NCBI GenBank assembly: GCA_028277845.1
Contig: JANQFL010000004.1
Span: 1-64,000 of the forward strand
Source of the DNA: Sneathiellales bacterium
GTDB taxonomy: Bacteria > Pseudomonadota > Alphaproteobacteria > JANQFL01
DNA length: 64,000 nt
Reading direction: 5' to 3'
Numbering within the stretch: the first letter of the stretch is position 1; each line of letters begins with the position of its first letter. Below, piece after piece: positions 29,802 to 41,445 of the stretch. A program made the translations under genes and the position numbers. The notes under the pieces are model-generated. The model was given only the letters and a program-made list of their open reading frames with translations. It was not told the DNA's origin and ran no database searches.

Positions 29802-31330
29802 AGACCCGCAAGGACTACGACATCATCATCATCGGCTCGGGCGCCGGCGGCGGCACGGTGGCCAAGGAACTCTCGTCCATGTGCGCCGACGGCCTGCGCA
29901 TCGCCGTGCTGGAACAGGGCCCGCGCCTGCGCGAGGACGAATACACCGGCCGCGAATCCGAGATGGCCCAGAAGCTGTACGTCGACAACGGCGGCATGAT
30001 GACGTCCGACGGCACCATGACCCTGGCCATGGGACGCCTGCTGGGCGGCTCGACGGTGGTCTACACCGGCACGTCGATCCTGCTGCCCGAACACGTGGCC
30101 GAGCGCTGGGCCGTGCCGGGCCTCGACTGGGCCGACCTGGTCGGGCGCTCGAAGAAATACATGGGCGAGAACAACGTGCACCTGCAGGAACCGGAGAAGA
30201 TCAACGACAACAACCGGCTGTTCCACGAAGGCTGCCAGGAGCTCGGATACGCCTGCGAACAGTTCCCCATCAACGTCAAGGGCTGCAAGGGCTCGGGGCT
30301 GTGCAATCTCGGCTGCCCCAACGCCGCCAAGCAGGGCACGCTCAGGGTGCAGCTGCCCGCCGCGGCGGCGAACGGGGTGGAACTGATCACCAACTGCCGG
30401 GTGGAGCGCATCGACGGCAAGACCCTGCACGCTCGCATCGAGAACCGCGACTTCGGCGAACCGTCGGCCTGGGCACCGGGCGACTACACCATTACCGCCA
30501 AGGCCATCGTCGTCTCGTCGGGTTCGGTCGGCTCCCCCGCCCTCTTGTTTCGTTCGGGCTTCGGCGACAGGCTGCCCATGCTCGGACGCTACTTCACCGC
30601 CCACCCGGCGCTGATCCTGGTCGGCCAGCACGCCGGCCCGATCACCAACTACCAGGGCCACCCCAAGAGCTATTTCTGCGACGAGTACATGGAGTCGGAG
30701 CGCTACCTGCTCGAGACCTGCATGTACTTCCCCTTCGTCACGGCCAAGAGCCTGTCGGGCTTCGGCCCGGAACACTCGGCGTTGATGGCCGACATGCGGC
30801 GCCTGCAGATGATCCTGGTGCTGGCCATGGACCCGGCCGAGAAGGACAACCGGATCGAGGTGGACAATGACGGCAACCCCGTCGTGCACTACGCCTTCCA
30901 CGACACGACCATTAATGCACTCGTGCACAGCCAGCGCACGTCGACGCGCATCTTCTTCGCCGCCGGGGCCGAGCGGGTGCACGCGCCGTCGGCCGACCGG
31001 TTCTTCATCGAGGCGCACGAGGCCAACCGGATCGACGACATCATCACCCGCGACAATTTCAAGCTCGGCAAGATCTCCATCGCCAGCGCCCATTTGATGG
31101 GCGGCTGCCGCATGGGCGGGGACACGGCCAAATCGGTCACCGACGCCTGGGGCCGGGTGCACGGCGAACCGGGGCTGTACGTCGCCGACGCCAGCCTGTT
31201 CCCGCAATGCTCGGAGGTGAACCCCTACCTCACCATCATGGGCCTGGCCGACCGGGTGGCGCAGCAGGTGCGCGAAGACTATGCGGAATTGGCGGCAGTG
31301 GCCAATACAGCTCAGGAGTCGGCGGCATGA
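29798..31330 (+). CDS. GMC-family FAD oxidoreductase
   Basis: KDYDIIIIGSGAGGGTVAKELS Rossmann motif; C-terminal SAHLMGGCRMGGDTAKSVTDAWGRVHGEPGLYVADASLFPQCSEVNPYLTIMGLADRVA. Confidence 0.92.
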   Translation: MKTRKDYDIIIIGSGAGGGTVAKELSSMCADGLRIAVLEQGPRLREDEYTGRESEMAQKLYVDNGGMMTSDGTMTLAMGRLLGGSTVVYTGTSILLPEHVAERWAVPGLDWADLVGRSKKYMGENNVHLQEPEKINDNNRLFHEGCQELGYACEQFPINVKGCKGSGLCNLGCPNAAKQGTLRVQLPAAAANGVELITNCRVERIDGKTLHARIENRDFGEPSAWAPGDYTITAKAIVVSSGSVGSPALLFRSGFGDRLPMLGRYFTAHPALILVGQHAGPITNYQGHPKSYFCDEYMESERYLLETCMYFPFVTAKSLSGFGPEHSALMADMRRLQMILVLAMDPAEKDNRIEVDNDGNPVVHYAFHDTTINALVHSQRTSTRIFFAAGAERVHAPSADRFFIEAHEANRIDDIITRDNFKLGKISIASAHLMGGCRMGGDTAKSVTDAWGRVHGEPGLYVADASLFPQCSEVNPYLTIMGLADRVAQQVREDYAELAAVANTAQESAA

Positions 31331-33066
31331 AGAAGCGCGGCGCGGACGTGGTGGTCAAGGCGCTGGAGGACGAAGGCGCCAGGTACGCCTTTGGCATTCC
31401 CGGCACCCACAACATCGAACTGTACGACTCCATCGACCAGGCCGGCACCATCGAGACCGTCCTGGTGACCGACGAGCAGGCCGCCTCGTTCATGGCCGAC
31501 GCCGTGTCGCGCTCGTCGGATTCCGTGGGCGTACTCAACGTGGTGCCTGGCGCCGGTATTAGTCATGCCCTCTCCGGCATCGCCGAGGCGTACATGGACA
31601 ACGTGCCCATGGTGGTGCTGGCCTCGGGCATCCGCGACGACACCGGCAAGGCGTTCCAACTGCACGACATCGACCAGCTCGCCCTGCTGGCGCCCGTCAC
31701 CAAGGCCCAGCTCAAGGTCCAGGCGCCCGGCGACATCTACCCCACCGTGCGCCAGGCGTTCGCGCTGGCCCGCGAGGGCGCCCCCGGCCCGGTCGCCGTC
31801 GAGGTGCCGGCCAACTATTACATCCTGACCCAGAACATTCCCGAGCTGACCTATGAGGCTCCCGCCGGTGGCCCCACGCCGCCCGACCCGGCCCAGGTGG
31901 CCGAGGCCGCAAGAATGCTGACCGAGGCCAGGAACCCGGCCATCTACGTCGGCAACGGGGCGCGCGGCGCCTCCGAGCGCTTACAACAAGTGGCGGAAAC
32001 GTTGGCCGCGCCGGTCACCACCACCATCCAGGGCAAGGGCGTGATGCCCGAAAGCCATCCCCTGTTTCTATGGAACGGCTTCGGCCGCGCCGCGCCGCCG
32101 TTCGTGCGCAAGGCCATGGACCGCTGCGACGCCCTGTTGGCCATCGGCTGCCGCTTCGGCGAGGTGGCGACGGCGTCGTACGGCTTCGAGACGCCCGAGA
32201 ACCTGATCCACGTCGACATCGACCCGAGCGTGTTCGACCGCAACTACAAATCCCGCCTCGCCGTCGAATCCGACGCCGGCCTGTTCCTGACGGCGCTACT
32301 GGAGCACCTGGGCTCTTTGGATTCTGGGGGCCGCGACTCATCGACGCTCGCATCCGAAATCGCCGCCGGGCACGCCGCCCTCGCCGCCGACCGGGCCGGC
32401 CAGAAATCGGGCGAGCGGGTGCGCCCCGCCGCCCTGTTCGCCGCCCTGCAGAAACACGCCGGGGCGGACGCCATCTTCACCGCCGACAGCGGCAACTCCA
32501 CCTTCCTGGCCATGGAGCATTTACGGCTCGACGCGCCCGGCCGTTTCCTCGCTCCGGTGGACTACTCCTGCATGGGCTATTCGGTGCCGGCGGCGCTCGG
32601 CGCCAAGATCGCCAACCCGTCAAAGGACGTCATCGCCCTGGCCGGCGACGGCGCGCTTCTGATGACCGGGCTGGAACTCCTGACGGGCGCGGCCTACGGC
32701 GCGGCACCGGCTGTGTTCGTGCTGCGCGACGGCGAACTGGCGCAAATCGCCCAGTTCCAGAAGATCACCATGAACAAGAAGGTCAACACCGATCTGCCCG
32801 GCTACTCGGTGGAGGCCTTCGCCACCGCCGCCAACTGCGACTTCCTGCGGCTAGACTCAGATGCCGACTGCGACACCGTCGTCGCCGAGGCGTTGAAGCG
32901 CACCCGCGACGGCGGGCCGCCGATCATGATCGACGTCGCCATCGACTATTCCTACAAGACCTTCTTCACCAAAGGCGCCGTGACGACGAACTTCTGGCGG
33001 CTGCCGTGGAACGACCGGTTGAAGTTGTTGGGAAGAGCGGTGGGACGGAGGATTGTGCCAGGGTGA
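31327..33066 (+). CDS. Thiamine-pyrophosphate-dependent enzyme (acetolactate synthase/benzoylformate decarboxylase-like)
   Basis: GIPGTHNIELYDSI, TDEQAASFMADAVSR, TPP motif GDGALLMTGLELLTGAAYGAAPAVFVLRDGE; overlaps GMC stop. Confidence 0.9.
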   Translation: MKKRGADVVVKALEDEGARYAFGIPGTHNIELYDSIDQAGTIETVLVTDEQAASFMADAVSRSSDSVGVLNVVPGAGISHALSGIAEAYMDNVPMVVLASGIRDDTGKAFQLHDIDQLALLAPVTKAQLKVQAPGDIYPTVRQAFALAREGAPGPVAVEVPANYYILTQNIPELTYEAPAGGPTPPDPAQVAEAARMLTEARNPAIYVGNGARGASERLQQVAETLAAPVTTTIQGKGVMPESHPLFLWNGFGRAAPPFVRKAMDRCDALLAIGCRFGEVATASYGFETPENLIHVDIDPSVFDRNYKSRLAVESDAGLFLTALLEHLGSLDSGGRDSSTLASEIAAGHAALAADRAGQKSGERVRPAALFAALQKHAGADAIFTADSGNSTFLAMEHLRLDAPGRFLAPVDYSCMGYSVPAALGAKIANPSKDVIALAGDGALLMTGLELLTGAAYGAAPAVFVLRDGELAQIAQFQKITMNKKVNTDLPGYSVEAFATAANCDFLRLDSDADCDTVVAEALKRTRDGGPPIMIDVAIDYSYKTFFTKGAVTTNFWRLPWNDRLKLLGRAVGRRIVPG

Positions 33067-33090: not shown

Positions 33091-34146
33091 TTACTCACTC
33101 TGACCAACAATTTGATTGGCCAATTCTAGGCTTTTTTCTTGCAAGATTTTTTGTTGATTGTCCGCATTTGTTAGAGAGATAAGCAAGTTTGCTGTTGCAC
33201 GAAGTGTATTACGAAGTTGTTCCAATCTCACATCGTATGTGTCAGCTCCAGAAACGTCGACGTTATCAAAAACTGCGGTGACACGGCCGATCCAACGTTT
33301 ATCAATTTCGCTACCTTCGGTCACCAAGGTTTCAAAATCTTTGAAACCAATGACATCGAACATTCTCGGTCCTTTGTCCATTTCTCGAAGCATCAAATCT
33401 CCTAGACCCACTTGCCAGTCTCTGTAGATCCAAGCTTCTCGATAAGACAAGCACTGCACCGCTCTTGCGACAGTTTCGTTGACGACTTCTTCACCAGGTG
33501 GATTGACTTTTAGTTCGTTGGAAACCTTATTCGCAAGTTCGAGGCAGAGATTTCTCTGGCTATCCTTTGATAGCTCGCTAGCCACTATCACCTGTCCCGC
33601 ATGCAGTTCTCTGCTCAAAATCTGATCTACTACAATGCCAATGCGTATCAGTTCAGACTCATTATTGTTGGTGTTCAAATCCCAAAGCTGCATCAGCCCT
33701 ACTAACCGTCTACCTTCGACATGTGCCCCATCGGCTAAAGCCGATTCGAGATCGCTTATCGCGCTTCTAATCGTCGCGATATCTTCGCTTTTTGTTGCTT
33801 TTAAAAATGACAATTCCCGACGAAATGCACGAATCCAACCAAGGAGTGTTAGAATCCTGTAGAACGTACTTAACCGCTTATACTCGGCAAACTTTGACGA
33901 ATGTGCGTCAACCTGAAGATACGCACCCCGACCTTCACCGTTTATCACTTCATTTAGGCGCCACAATAGACTTGTTGCGCTTGAAGCAAGTGGATCAGAA
34001 TACTTGTGAAATATCTCTTGTGCCGTTTCGGTTTTTTCTGCGCGACGCTCCCAAATCTTCATACCTACATCACGCACAATTATGCCGACGACCGCCACGA
34101 CAGCGGCCACTAATGCGGCTTGCAGTTGGGGTGACAAAGTAGTCAT
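33091..34146 (-). CDS. Orphan protein with one N-terminal TM segment and a cytosolic helical domain, function unknown
   Basis: MTTLSPQLQAALVAAVVAVVGIIVRDVGMKIWERRAEKTETAQEIFHKYSDPLASSATSLLWRLNEVI; visibly AT-rich compared with flanks; no family recognised. Confidence 0.7.
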   Translation of the reverse strand: MTTLSPQLQAALVAAVVAVVGIIVRDVGMKIWERRAEKTETAQEIFHKYSDPLASSATSLLWRLNEVINGEGRGAYLQVDAHSSKFAEYKRLSTFYRILTLLGWIRAFRRELSFLKATKSEDIATIRSAISDLESALADGAHVEGRRLVGLMQLWDLNTNNNESELIRIGIVVDQILSRELHAGQVIVASELSKDSQRNLCLELANKVSNELKVNPPGEEVVNETVARAVQCLSYREAWIYRDWQVGLGDLMLREMDKGPRMFDVIGFKDFETLVTEGSEIDKRWIGRVTAVFDNVDVSGADTYDVRLEQLRNTLRATANLLISLTNADNQQKILQEKSLELANQIVGQSE

Positions 34147-34242: not shown

Positions 34243-34470
34243 CACTGCGATCTCGTGCGGCTTGACGCCAAGAGCGACGCCGTCGTCGCCGAGGCCCTCA
34301 AACGCACCCGCGAAGGCGGCCCGCCGATCATGATCGACGTCGCCATCGACTATTCCTACAAGACCTTCTTCACCAAGGGCGCCGTGACGACGAACTTCTG
34401 GCGGTTGCCGTGGAATGACCGGCTGAAGTTGTTGGGACGCGCGGTGGGGCGGAGGATTGTGCCGGGGTGA
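34243..34470 (+). pseudogene. Truncated, diverged second copy of the 3' end of the TPP-enzyme gene
   Basis: CDLVRLDAKSDAVVAEALKRTREGGPPIMIDVAIDYSYKTFFTKGAVTTNFWRLPWNDRLKLLGRAVGRRIVPG nearly identical to the C-terminus at about 32838-33066, with nucleotide differences and a 2-codon indel; no 5' part of the gene. Confidence 0.92.
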
Positions 34471-35610: not shown

Positions 35611-35780
35611 GAGAATACTGTCTAGTCAACTTGTTCTTGCACAATCGCAGGAGTGCTAAGCGACAGCGAATTGTGCGACAACTTGTCAAAGTTGTCGGCG
35701 TGAGCCCTCAAGGTTCATGCCGATAGGTTAAAACTGGCCTTATCCACACGAGGCGAATACACCTCATCGTGCTATTCTCC
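35611..35780 (-). ncRNA. Candidate retron msr-msd noncoding RNA
   Basis: Terminal a1/a2 inverted repeat GGAGAAUA/UAUUCUC(U) at 35773-35780 and 35611-35617; UAGC just after a1; stem-loops at 35745-35771, 35676-35697 and 35639-35676; ends 17 nt upstream of RT ATG. Confidence 0.75.
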
Positions 35781-37013: not shown

Positions 37014-37125
37014 TTAGGCTGCACCCCCAATCACTGAATTTGTTGGCTATTAGACTATCTAATACAACCAAAAATTCAATAGATTTACGCTTACAAAGAC
37101 ACGCGCCTTCTCCTTACGGTTGTCA

Positions 37126-37163
37126 CAAAAAAACCGGCGCCCATAAGGCGCCAGCAGTTTTTG
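37126..37163 (-). terminator. Rho-independent terminator of the basic secreted protein gene, copy 1
   Basis: On minus strand CTGGCGCC TTAT GGGCGCCGG TTTTTTT. Confidence 0.85.
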
Positions 37164-37203
37164 GGAGGTTTGCTGTTGAGGTGTTGAGCTTCGTCTTTTC
37201 GGC

Positions 37204-38214
37204 TTACCAGAACTTCAGCTTCTTGGCGGCCTTGCCGATGCTCTTGCCGGCCTTGGCGACGGACTTGCTGATCTTCTTGACGGTCTTCTTCGGGGTGGAG
37301 ATGGCCTTGGCGATCTTGACCGTTGTCTTGCCGACGCTCTTCACACCGTTGACCGTGTTGTTCAGCATCTTCTTCGGGTTGGTCAGGGTCTTGCCGATCT
37401 CGACCGTCTTCTTGACCGTGTCCTTGCCCAGCTTGTAGACGGCCTTGTGGGCGTTCTTCGGGTCCTTCAGGGTGTTGACCGTCCACATCGCGGCGTCCAC
37501 GGCGTCCGGCAGGTCGGTGCCCAGGACCGTCTCGGCGGCCATCACGCCGACGCCGGCGGTCAGGGCTTTGTACTTCTTCACGGACTTGGCGGTCTTGGCG
37601 ACCTGGGTGGTGGTCCGGGCGTAACGAGCAGTCTTGACGCCTTTGCGGGCGTTGCGGGCGACCTTGCCGGCCTTCAGCGTGCGGGCGGGCGCCTTGGCGA
37701 CGATGCGCTTGGCCTGGGCCCGCTGGCCGGCCTTGATGGTGCGGGACGGCACCCGGGGCGTGGCCTTGGCCTGCAGGGTCTTGGTGACGGATGCTTTCTT
37801 GCGGGCGTGGCGGGCAACGTCGCCCTGGTGGCGCAGCGCGTCGCGGTTCTTGGCGATGGCGCGGGTGACCTGCTTGCCCTTGCGGGTCTGCATGCGGTTG
37901 TTCATGCGCACGTTCTGGGCCTTCTGGCCGCGCTTCAACGTCTGGATGGCGGTCGGCTGCTTGGCGAAGCCCTTGCTGAACTTGGTGAAGCTGGCGCGCG
38001 GCTTGGGGGCGCGGGTGGCGGTGCTGGTCTTCAGAATGCCGCGGGGGGCGGTGACGGTGCGGGTCGGCTGGGCGGCGGAGTAGCCGTTGCCGGCGACGCG
38101 GGGGGTACTGTCGAAGCTGACGCCCAGGCGCGGCGCGCCGGCGTTGGCGGAAGTCATTGCGACGGTGGTGGAGACGGTGACGATGGCGGCGGCGGTGATG
38201 AATTTCGTGAACAT
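37204..38214 (-). CDS. Signal-peptide-bearing, Lys/Ala-rich histone-H1-like basic protein, copy 1
   Basis: MFTKFITAAAIVTVSTTVAMTSANAG signal peptide; K/R-rich body (KKTVEIGKTLTNPKKMLNNTVNGVKSVGKTTVKIAKAISTPKKTVKKISKSVAKAGKSIGKAAKKLKFW). Confidence 0.8.
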   Translation of the reverse strand: MFTKFITAAAIVTVSTTVAMTSANAGAPRLGVSFDSTPRVAGNGYSAAQPTRTVTAPRGILKTSTATRAPKPRASFTKFSKGFAKQPTAIQTLKRGQKAQNVRMNNRMQTRKGKQVTRAIAKNRDALRHQGDVARHARKKASVTKTLQAKATPRVPSRTIKAGQRAQAKRIVAKAPARTLKAGKVARNARKGVKTARYARTTTQVAKTAKSVKKYKALTAGVGVMAAETVLGTDLPDAVDAAMWTVNTLKDPKNAHKAVYKLGKDTVKKTVEIGKTLTNPKKMLNNTVNGVKSVGKTTVKIAKAISTPKKTVKKISKSVAKAGKSIGKAAKKLKFW

Positions 38215-38425
38215 GGTGCTTTCCTCTCGGGTTCGGTGTTGTGCCGTTGTGTTGAGAGGATTGTGCCCAGACGGCCCGCCATCCGCCGTGGCAGGCAGCA
38301 CCGCAAGCCTGTGTTAATTGTCACAAATCGGGGTGGATTCGGTCGGAATCGGCGGAAAATGAGGGAAAATGGAGATTCACCACCCCGTAATTTCAGCGGC
38401 GTGCTAGCATTTTCGCCACCTATTC

Positions 38426-40054
38426 ATGAGGGGGGCGACGGACATGGTGGTACGAACGGCTGGAAAAAAGACGACCGGAAAATCGAGCAAAAAGAAAACC
38501 GCCGAGCAGCCCAGCATGCGCACCTGGCTGGCCACCCTCGAGGCGGCCGGGCAGTTGAGCACGGTCACGGCCAAGGTCGATTGGGACGAGGAGATCGGTG
38601 CCATCGCACGGGTCAATCTCAGCGTCGGCGGGCCGGCGCTGCTGTTCGAAAACATCAAGGATTACAAGAAGGGCCGCTGCACCCAGTTCATGACCTGCGG
38701 CGTCGGCGACCGGGCGAAGGTGGCGCTGATGCTCGGCCTGCCGGACGACACGCCGGACAAGACCATCGTCCGGCACCTCAAGGACACCTACCGCCAACCT
38801 ATCGAACCGGTGACGGTCGCGACCGGCCCGGTCAAGGACGTTATCCTGCGGGGCGACGACATCGACCTGTGGCAGTTTCCCTCGGTCAAGTGGCATGCCT
38901 CCGACGGCGGCCAGTACATGGACACGTTCTGCGGCGTGGTCACCCACGACCCGGTCACAGACCGGCCCAACATCGGACTCTATCGCGGCCAGGTGCTGGA
39001 CAAACGCAAGATCGGCAAGCTGCTGGTGCCGACCCAGGGCTGGGGTACCCACTTCGGCAAGCACCAGGACGCCGAGCGCCGCATGCCCGTCGCCATCGTG
39101 CACGGCTGGCACGACGCCATGCCGTTCTGCGCCGGCAGCCCGTTCCCCAAGCAGATCTGCGAGTGGGACATGATCGGCGCCATCGTCGGCCAGCCGGTCG
39201 AGCTGGTGGATTGCGAGACGGTGCCGCTGCAGGTCCCGGCGACGGCCGAGATCGTGGTCGAGGGCTGGATCGATCCCGACCCGGCGACCTACGAGATGGA
39301 GGGGCCGTTCGCCGACTATCCCGGGTATCTGGGCGGCAAGCCCTCGCCGAAACCGGTGGTGCAGGTGAGCTGCGTGACCCACCGCAGGAAACCGATCATG
39401 CGCGGTGCGCTGGAAGGCGCGCGGCCGGGGTTCCCGAGCGAGGATTCACCGCTGTGCGCCTATTCCTGGTCGGCCATCGCCTGGAACATGCTGGAGGACG
39501 CGGGCGTCGCCGGCGTCACCGACGTGTGGATGCCGCCGGTCTCCACCGGCACCAACATCGTCATCCAGGTGCGCAAGCGCTACCGCGGCCACGCCACCCA
39601 GATCGGCCACGCCCTGTGGGCCACCGCCGCCGGCCAGTGGTTCTTCAAGAACGTCATGGTGGTTGAGGAGGACATCGACATCCGCGACCGGGAGGCGCTG
39701 GACTGGGCCATGGCCTTCCGGGTCAATGCCAGGCGTGGCGACGTGCTGATCCACGGGCCGACCTACGGCTCGGTACTCGACCCCTCCACCCTGCCCGCCG
39801 ACCGCGACATCGCCAAGTACGGCACCGGCAAATGGCACCGGGTGCTGATCGACGCCACCCGCAGCTGGGAACACGAGCGCAACCCGGACTGGAACGGCAA
39901 CCGCTACCCGCCGCTCAACAAGATCGACCCCGTGCTGGAAGCCAAGGTGCGCAAGCGCTGGAAAAGCTACGGCATCGCGGCGGACTATCTGAGCGAGGAG
40001 AAACGCGAACTGCTGACCATGGCGGAATTGTCGAAACGTTTTTCCGAGGTCTGA
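38426..40054 (+). CDS. UbiD family decarboxylase
   Basis: RTWLATLEAAGQLSTVTAKVDWDEEIGAIARV...GPALLFENIKDYKKGRC...EGPFADYPGYLGGKP, 542 aa. Confidence 0.9.
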   Translation: MRGATDMVVRTAGKKTTGKSSKKKTAEQPSMRTWLATLEAAGQLSTVTAKVDWDEEIGAIARVNLSVGGPALLFENIKDYKKGRCTQFMTCGVGDRAKVALMLGLPDDTPDKTIVRHLKDTYRQPIEPVTVATGPVKDVILRGDDIDLWQFPSVKWHASDGGQYMDTFCGVVTHDPVTDRPNIGLYRGQVLDKRKIGKLLVPTQGWGTHFGKHQDAERRMPVAIVHGWHDAMPFCAGSPFPKQICEWDMIGAIVGQPVELVDCETVPLQVPATAEIVVEGWIDPDPATYEMEGPFADYPGYLGGKPSPKPVVQVSCVTHRRKPIMRGALEGARPGFPSEDSPLCAYSWSAIAWNMLEDAGVAGVTDVWMPPVSTGTNIVIQVRKRYRGHATQIGHALWATAAGQWFFKNVMVVEEDIDIRDREALDWAMAFRVNARRGDVLIHGPTYGSVLDPSTLPADRDIAKYGTGKWHRVLIDATRSWEHERNPDWNGNRYPPLNKIDPVLEAKVRKRWKSYGIAADYLSEEKRELLTMAELSKRFSEV

Positions 40055-40087
40055 TCCGAGCCGCGGCCTGGTACCCCATTCGGTAAC

Positions 40088-40123
40088 AAAAAAACCGGCG
40101 CCTGAGAGGCGCCGGCAGTTTTT
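40088..40123 (-). terminator. Rho-independent terminator of basic secreted protein gene, copy 2
   Basis: On minus strand CCGGCGCC TCTCA GGCGCCGG TTTTTTT. Confidence 0.87.
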
Positions 40124-40163
40124 GGGAGGTTTGCTTCGGTGAATTTTGTCGTGTCTTCTCCGC

Positions 40164-41192
40164 CTACCAGAACTTCAGCTTCATGGCGGCCTTGCCGATA
40201 CTCTTGCCGGCCTTGGAGATGGACTTGCCGATCTTCTTGGCGGTCTTCTTCGGGGTCGAGATGGCCTTGGCGATCTTGACCGTGGTCTTGCCGACGCTCT
40301 TCACGCCGTTGATGGTGTTCTTGGCCATCTTCTTCGGGTTGGTCAGGGTCTTGGCGATCTCGACGGTCTTCTTGGCGGTGTCCACACCCAGCTTGGCGAC
40401 CGCTTTGTGGGCGTTCTTCGGATCCTTCAGGGTGTTCACGGTCCACATCGCGGCGTCCACGGCGTCCGGCAGGTCGGTGCCCAGGACCGTCTCGGCAGCC
40501 ATCAGGCCAACGCCGCCGGTCAGGGCTTTGTACTTCTTCACGGACTTGGCGGTCTTGGCCGCGGACGCGGTGGTCTTGGCGTACTTGGCCGTGCGGGCGA
40601 CGCGGGTGGCCTTGCGGGAGTTGCGGGCAACCTTGCCGGCCTTCAGCGTGCGGGCGGGAGCCTTGGCGACGATGCGCTTGGCCTGGGCCCGCTGGCCGGC
40701 CTTGACGACGCGGGACGGAACCCGGGGGCTGACTTTGGGGCTGGCCTTGGCCTGCAGGGTCTTGGTGACCGAAACTTTCTTCCGGGCGTGGCGGGCGACG
40801 TCGCCCTGGTGGCGCAGCGCGTCACGGTTCTTGGCGATGGCGCGGGTCACTTGTTTGCCCTTGCGGGTCTGCATGCGGTTGTTCATGCGCACGTTCTGGG
40901 CCTTCTGGCCGCGCTTCAAGGTCTGGATGGCGGCCGGCTGCTTGGCGAAGCCCTTGCTGAACTTGTTGAAGCTGGCGCGGGGCTTGGGAGCGCGGGTCGT
41001 GGCGGTGCGGGTTTTCAGGATGCCGCGGGGGGTACCGACGGTGCGGGTCGGCTGGGCGGCGGAGTAACCGTTGCCGGCGGTACGCAGGCCGGTGTCGAAG
41101 CGGACGCCCAGCTTGGGGGCATCGGCCAGGGCTGCGGTGGCGGTGACGGTGACGGTGACGATGGCGGCGGCGGTGATGAATTTCGTGAACAT
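40164..41192 (-). CDS. Signal-peptide-bearing histone-H1-like basic protein, copy 2
   Basis: MFTKFITAAAIVTVTVTATAALADAPKLGVRFD...; long identical blocks shared with copy 1 (LKRGQKAQNVRMNNRMQTRKGKQVTRAIAKNRDALRHQGDVARHARKK; AAETVLGTDLPDAVDAAMWTVNTLKDPKNAHKAV). Confidence 0.8.
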   Translation of the reverse strand: MFTKFITAAAIVTVTVTATAALADAPKLGVRFDTGLRTAGNGYSAAQPTRTVGTPRGILKTRTATTRAPKPRASFNKFSKGFAKQPAAIQTLKRGQKAQNVRMNNRMQTRKGKQVTRAIAKNRDALRHQGDVARHARKKVSVTKTLQAKASPKVSPRVPSRVVKAGQRAQAKRIVAKAPARTLKAGKVARNSRKATRVARTAKYAKTTASAAKTAKSVKKYKALTGGVGLMAAETVLGTDLPDAVDAAMWTVNTLKDPKNAHKAVAKLGVDTAKKTVEIAKTLTNPKKMAKNTINGVKSVGKTTVKIAKAISTPKKTAKKIGKSISKAGKSIGKAAMKLKFW

Positions 41193-41445
41193 GGTGTTTC
41201 CTCTCGGGTTCGGTGTTGTGCCGTTCTGTTGAGAGGATTGTGCCCAAACCGCCCGCCCACCGCCGTGGCGGGCGGCACCCCGGGCCTGTGTTAATTGTCA
41301 CAAATGGGGGTAGATTCGGGGGAAATTGGCGGAAAACGGGGGAAAAAGGCAGGTTCGTCAGACCGTTTGTGGCCAGCAACCAAACGCCATGCCCGGGTCA
41401 AGCCCGGGCAAGACACTAGAGTTTCTTATCTAACCAATATGCCCG

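Follow-up and report, generated by a model that had tools for sequence, protein, structure and literature searches.

Retrons are bacterial anti-phage systems which make a small DNA of their own. In the 64,000-nt stretch of a Sneathiellales contig analysed here (hereafter the window), a gene for a wHTH protein and one for a retron reverse transcriptase (RT) are separated by a structured RNA about 183 nt long (35786-35604, minus strand), and the question raised by this locus is whether that RNA is the template of a retron and, if so, of which type, where it would be primed and which part of it would be copied. Judged from the sequence, the element is most probably the msr-msd template RNA of a type III-A retron, encoded in a PRTase-wHTH-ncRNA-RT operon, predicted to be primed at G35772 and to take part in silencing the effector; a probability of about 0.93 is given to this reading as a whole. 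Type III-A retrons are little studied, and the present one, an ordinary addition to those known, brings an alphaproteobacterial member with a well-supported ncRNA.

The assignment to type III-A has been made because the PRTase, wHTH and RT neighbours of the RNA match the PADLOC models of that type (Table 1): a RT of the III-A class, a PRTase effector and an accessory winged-helix protein are all present. The five best PADLOC models for the RT are all RT_III-A, Pfam places it in RVT_1, and the protein carries the retron motifs NAxxH (NAREH at 124) and VTG (at 260), together with YADD at 214. When compared by sequence with solved structures, its closest matches are retron RTs, Ec86 first (1e-43). 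The PRTase contains a PRPP-loop-like VDDFVGTG at residue 154 and has no notable relative among solved structures, and the wHTH gene starts 3 nt beyond the PRTase stop. As for the RNA, a folding energy of -69.4 kcal/mol was calculated for the complete element (z = -3.7 relative to shuffled sequences). No Rfam family exceeded its gathering score for it, and nothing relevant was found up to an E of 10 either; the sole weak match, the hilD 3'UTR (15.8 bits against the 74 needed), was put down to chance.

Table 1. Positions in the window of the retron genes and of the parts of the ncRNA
Feature	Position	Strand	Basis
PRTase effector gene, 288 aa, GTG start	37013-36147	-	PADLOC PRTase_III-A 5.6e-81; Pfam PRTase-CE PF24390 5.4e-25
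wHTH gene, 123 aa, GTG start	36143-35772	-	PADLOC WH_III-A 4.4e-12; ORF list
a1 arm, GGCGUCGGAGAAUA (= GGCGTCGGAGAATA)	35786-35773	-	14-bp stem with a2; covariation, 11 loci
Predicted priming (branching) G in UA/GC, third base of the wHTH stop	35772	-	UA/G in 11/11 loci; equal position in Ec86
msr hairpin 1, family-conserved loop region UGUAUUCG	35771-35745	-	Fold; pairing; compensatory changes
Linker GUUUUAACC, GUUAA-like motif in most homologues	35734-35726	-	Alignment
Hairpin A, CGGCATGAACC-TTGAG-GGCTCACGCCG	35722-35696	-	Fold
Hairpin B, GACAACUU-UGAC-AAGUUGUC	35696-35677	-	Fold
Hairpin C, GCACAAU(U)CGC-N17-GCGAUUGUGC	35676-35639	-	Fold; msd stem of the preliminary description
21-nt tail between hairpin C and a2, expected start of reverse transcription	35638-35618	-	Analogy with Ec86 (PMC6868368)
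a2 arm, UAUUCUCUGGCGCC (= TATTCTCTGGCGCC)	35617-35604	-	14-bp stem with a1; covariation, 11 loci
Possible cDNA (DNA part of the msDNA), about 110 nt, three hairpins closed by CTGTC/GATAG	35618-35727	+	Inferred from the complementary-strand fold
Retron RT gene, 351 aa	35593-34538	-	PADLOC RT_III-A PDLC02943 4e-131

The RNA adjoins the RT gene and ends in inverted repeats, a1 and a2, as a retron ncRNA does. These pair over 14 bp, including two G.U, with a score of 32.0 that exceeds all of 100 dinucleotide shuffles of the region (mean 20.8, maximum 28.5). The preliminary description, which had claimed a msr-msd ncRNA and whose quoted sequences and coordinates are all present, had recognised this stem at a length of 8 bp; once the full a2 is counted, 10 nt separate it from the RT ATG (35593), instead of the 17 nt given there.

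Homologues were collected by RT_III-A searches of genome and plasmid collections, which returned loci from Rhizobium, Acinetobacter, a Hyphomicrobiales plasmid, Priestia and several further genomes. Those compared include Rhizobium leguminosarum pRlvC (L033), Hyphomicrobiales UR115 (L036) and Acinetobacter cumulans (L032), in all three of which a PRTase gene was seen, as well as L022, L037, L038, L040, L042 and L043. Their RTs are about 40% identical to that of the window or less (39-41% for the named plasmids). Relatives above 60% identity were absent from the genome contigs, plasmids, phages and about 1,345 genomes searched, and IMG/VR viral contigs held no relatives of the RT; in the genome collection searched, the window's genome is the sole member of its family and order.

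Ten homologous loci carry a stem of 12-19 bp, each with its own sequence, at the same place between the wHTH and RT genes, interrupted by a mismatch in L022 and by a bulge in L036. Over pairs 3-12 of the eleven loci, the window included, cognate arms form standard pairs in 107 of 110 cells, against 48% pairing when arms of different loci are combined, a paired percentage that is biased upward because complementarity was what guided the search for the homologue arms (done by eye in L022 and L036). Each of these pairs takes three to six standard forms among the loci. A lack of a1/a2 covariation in homologues had been named beforehand as the finding that would speak against the ncRNA; when this was checked, the stem was found to covary over the eleven loci.

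The two innermost pairs, by contrast with these varying ones, are invariant: UA ends every a1 and starts every a2, and a G follows a1 in 11 of 11 loci. The UAGC formerly placed directly after a1 has to be divided, UA belonging to a1 and only GC coming after it. The predicted priming G at the end of a1 stands in an AGC context (UA|GC, 35774-35771), which is the context of the priming G in retrons (PMC6868368). In hairpin 1, which comes next, 92.6% of the cells are paired, with compensatory changes at two pairs, and pairing falls to 46-59% when the partner is slid by 1-3 columns; in this short helix, neither the additional pair types nor the pairs changed on both sides exceeded the shuffle level. 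A covariance model of the msr half (56 positions, eight homologues, window left out) gave a single match in the 64 kb, at 35778-35722 on the minus strand (41.5 bits, E 1.5e-8), coinciding with the proposed msr. This match and the invariant UA|G are less affected by the way in which the arms were found. The RNA is therefore of the III-A kind as measured against other loci found with the RT_III-A model. Together with the type III-A gene neighbours, the covarying stem and hairpin 1, these results bear out the earlier claim of a msr-msd ncRNA.

The homologous loci share with the window the order of wHTH, ncRNA and RT and the plan of the msr, whereas the sequence of a1/a2, hairpins A-C and the spacing differ. 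In most of them the 5' part consists of a1, UA/G, hairpin 1 with a UGUANUCG-like loop and a GUUAA-like linker, and the 3' part of two or three head-to-tail hairpins (A, B, C) and then a2, preceded by an unpaired tail which, where it is clearest, measures about 17-21 nt. At RT identities of about 40% or below, hairpins A-C are not alignable column by column. The plan can be used for annotating other type III-A ncRNAs. In Bacteroides finegoldii (L034), an a1/a2-like stem and a GAGGTGTAGTCGCTTC msr-like hairpin lie upstream of a RT of the same class, with no adjoining gene annotated as PRTase or wHTH. More distant loci found with the RT_III-A model (L041, L025, L024 and L030) have a1/a2 stems of 12-13 bp and a different msr sequence, GCGTTCAGC or GGCGCG-GTGTGTATC, and perhaps represent another ncRNA subclass.

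The next point is which part of the RNA would be copied. The three internal hairpins listed in the preliminary description are present, but the list was incomplete, hairpin A having been missed; hairpin C, there taken as the msd stem, would lie in the msd, probably as one of three hairpins and not as its only one. Retron RTs begin near a2 and copy toward the msr (PMC6868368), and the tail expected to serve as starting point has counterparts of 17-21 nt in several homologues. Hairpin A has two A.C mismatches as RNA, which become G.T pairs of a continuous stem as cDNA. Across the eleven loci, the 46 nt that follow a1 give the better fold as RNA, and the remainder tends to do so as the complement; the contrast between sense and complement within loci reaches a paired p = 0.001, and the 3' part alone p = 0.06. 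Random 109-nt pieces of the contig vary with an s.d. of 7 kcal/mol, and 4% of them reach the single-locus value of the window. In Ec86, used as a control with known msd, the msr half behaves as predicted (+7.1) and the msd half is neutral (+1.0), so that sense-versus-antisense folding is suggestive only as a test of the copied half. A cDNA of about 110 nt with three hairpins is probably nearer the truth than one of hairpin C alone, short of proof because of the p = 0.06, the s.d. and the neutral msd of Ec86. A retron whose msd comprised just hairpin C and the tail, with A and B in the msr and a cDNA of about 60-80 nt, is considered unlikely: hairpin C is indeed the last stem ahead of a2, Ec86 copies one long stem and a 61-nt cDNA is also stable in folding, but the better pairing of hairpin A as cDNA and the contrast over the eleven loci, which is not decisive, favour the three-hairpin product.

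A second matter is the overlap of the RNA with the end of the wHTH gene. The last four wHTH sense codons (GGC GTC GGA GAA) and the UA of the UAG stop lie in a1, and the G of the stop is the predicted priming G; the overlap, formerly given as GGA GAA TAG, is thus real and larger than described, and it loses the distinctiveness ascribed to it, Ec86 carrying it too. Ec86 (Eco1, E. coli) is the founding, experimentally studied retron. It has the effector-ncRNA-RT order of the window and an a1 whose final UA is followed directly by the priming G; in E. coli strain C (L045), the effector CDS ends at 2013 and a1 occupies 2001-2012, so that the effector UAG stop is likewise made of the last two a1 bases and the priming G. 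Its effector is a nucleoside deoxyribosyltransferase-like protein, in contrast to the PRTase and wHTH of the window, and its msd is a single long stem, against the three hairpins proposed here. The locus L039, in which a wHTH stop (CCC-TAG) precedes a similar hairpin, was considered as an extra case of overlap and set aside, a convincing a2 not having been found. For the overlap, the invariant UA|G is the most economical explanation, since it provides a ready-made stop in one of three frames. It is very improbable that the overlap is regulatory, with ribosomes finishing wHTH melting a1, limiting the folding of the ncRNA and coupling the amounts of protein and msDNA: the stop falls exactly on the priming G in both the window retron and Ec86, and in L040 the wHTH frame runs beyond the priming G to a stop inside the msr, yet in most homologues the stop lies upstream of a1, ending 17-50 nt ahead of the priming G, so that the overlap is not conserved, and UA|G alone would supply it. 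Very improbable, too, is a strict form in which translation to the stop on the priming G would make the synthesis of wHTH (and, by coupling, of PRTase) and that of msDNA mutually exclusive on each transcript; were it true, Ec86 would work likewise. The coincidence of stop and priming G in the two retrons makes a small point about effector translation and ncRNA folding sharing one transcript. Finally, the structure might serve to attenuate or terminate transcription between wHTH and RT and have no part as a template, and TTCCTTTTTT does stand after the a2 arm, ahead of the RT ATG; but the enclosed structured region of 155 nt, the invariant UA|G and the adjoining retron RT are unlike terminators, and type III-A operons are known to give RT-DNA bands (PMC12548924), which leaves this extremely improbable.

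For the msr-msd template RNA, we infer the following course as the most likely one. The PRTase-wHTH-ncRNA-RT operon would be transcribed on the minus strand, and the pairing of the ncRNA ends would bring G35772 to face the end of the msd. From the 2'-OH of that G, the RT would then begin to copy the RNA's 3' half, and the predicted product is a branched RNA-DNA (msDNA or RT-DNA with a 2'-5' branch), whose DNA part would stay with the RT. By analogy with other retrons, the RT-msDNA complex would silence the effector (PRTase together with the wHTH protein), and disturbance of the complex by a phage would free the effector and stop the cell. Defence against phages by the window retron is in this sense putative.

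The nearest described systems are Retron-Bpu1 and Retron-Ppe1, both of type III-A, with which the window shares the effector and accessory genes, the RT class (by PADLOC models) and the presence of an ncRNA in the operon. They differ from it in host lineage and sequence; their ncRNA structures are published as figures. Type III-A operons with PRTase and WH have been described, with RT-DNA bands in the natural hosts of both retrons and, for Retron-Bpu1, in E. coli too (PMC12548924). Retron-Bpu1 gave no defence against the phage panel used, and transformation of E. coli with Retron-Ppe1 failed, which the authors read as toxicity (PMC12548924).

The retron looks acquired, because the stretch of about 33.07-37.1 kb has 36-54% GC within a contig of 65-70% GC. 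Next to it, an acetolactate-synthase-like TPP gene (31207-33066) has its 3'-terminal 207 nt present twice on the plus strand (32860-33066 and 34264-34470), the second copy being 91% identical and lying 1404 nt downstream; the two are separated by a low-GC ORF of 351 aa (33091-34146, minus strand), which is of unknown family. The duplication has the look of a footprint left by an island at its point of entry, the 3' end of the acetolactate-synthase-like gene. An inverted repeat, TATTAGA-TAG-TCTAATA (37064-37048), is placed 34 nt upstream of the PRTase start and could be an operator bound by the wHTH protein, or else a promoter element; this 7-bp repeat has no counterpart in L032, L033 or L035. 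Further upstream, two lysine/alanine-rich paralogous genes (37204-38301 and 40164-41192, minus strand) flank a UbiD-family gene (38426-40054), and their regions (37122-38372 and 40083-41349) share blocks of 75-93% identity, a terminator-like hairpin included.
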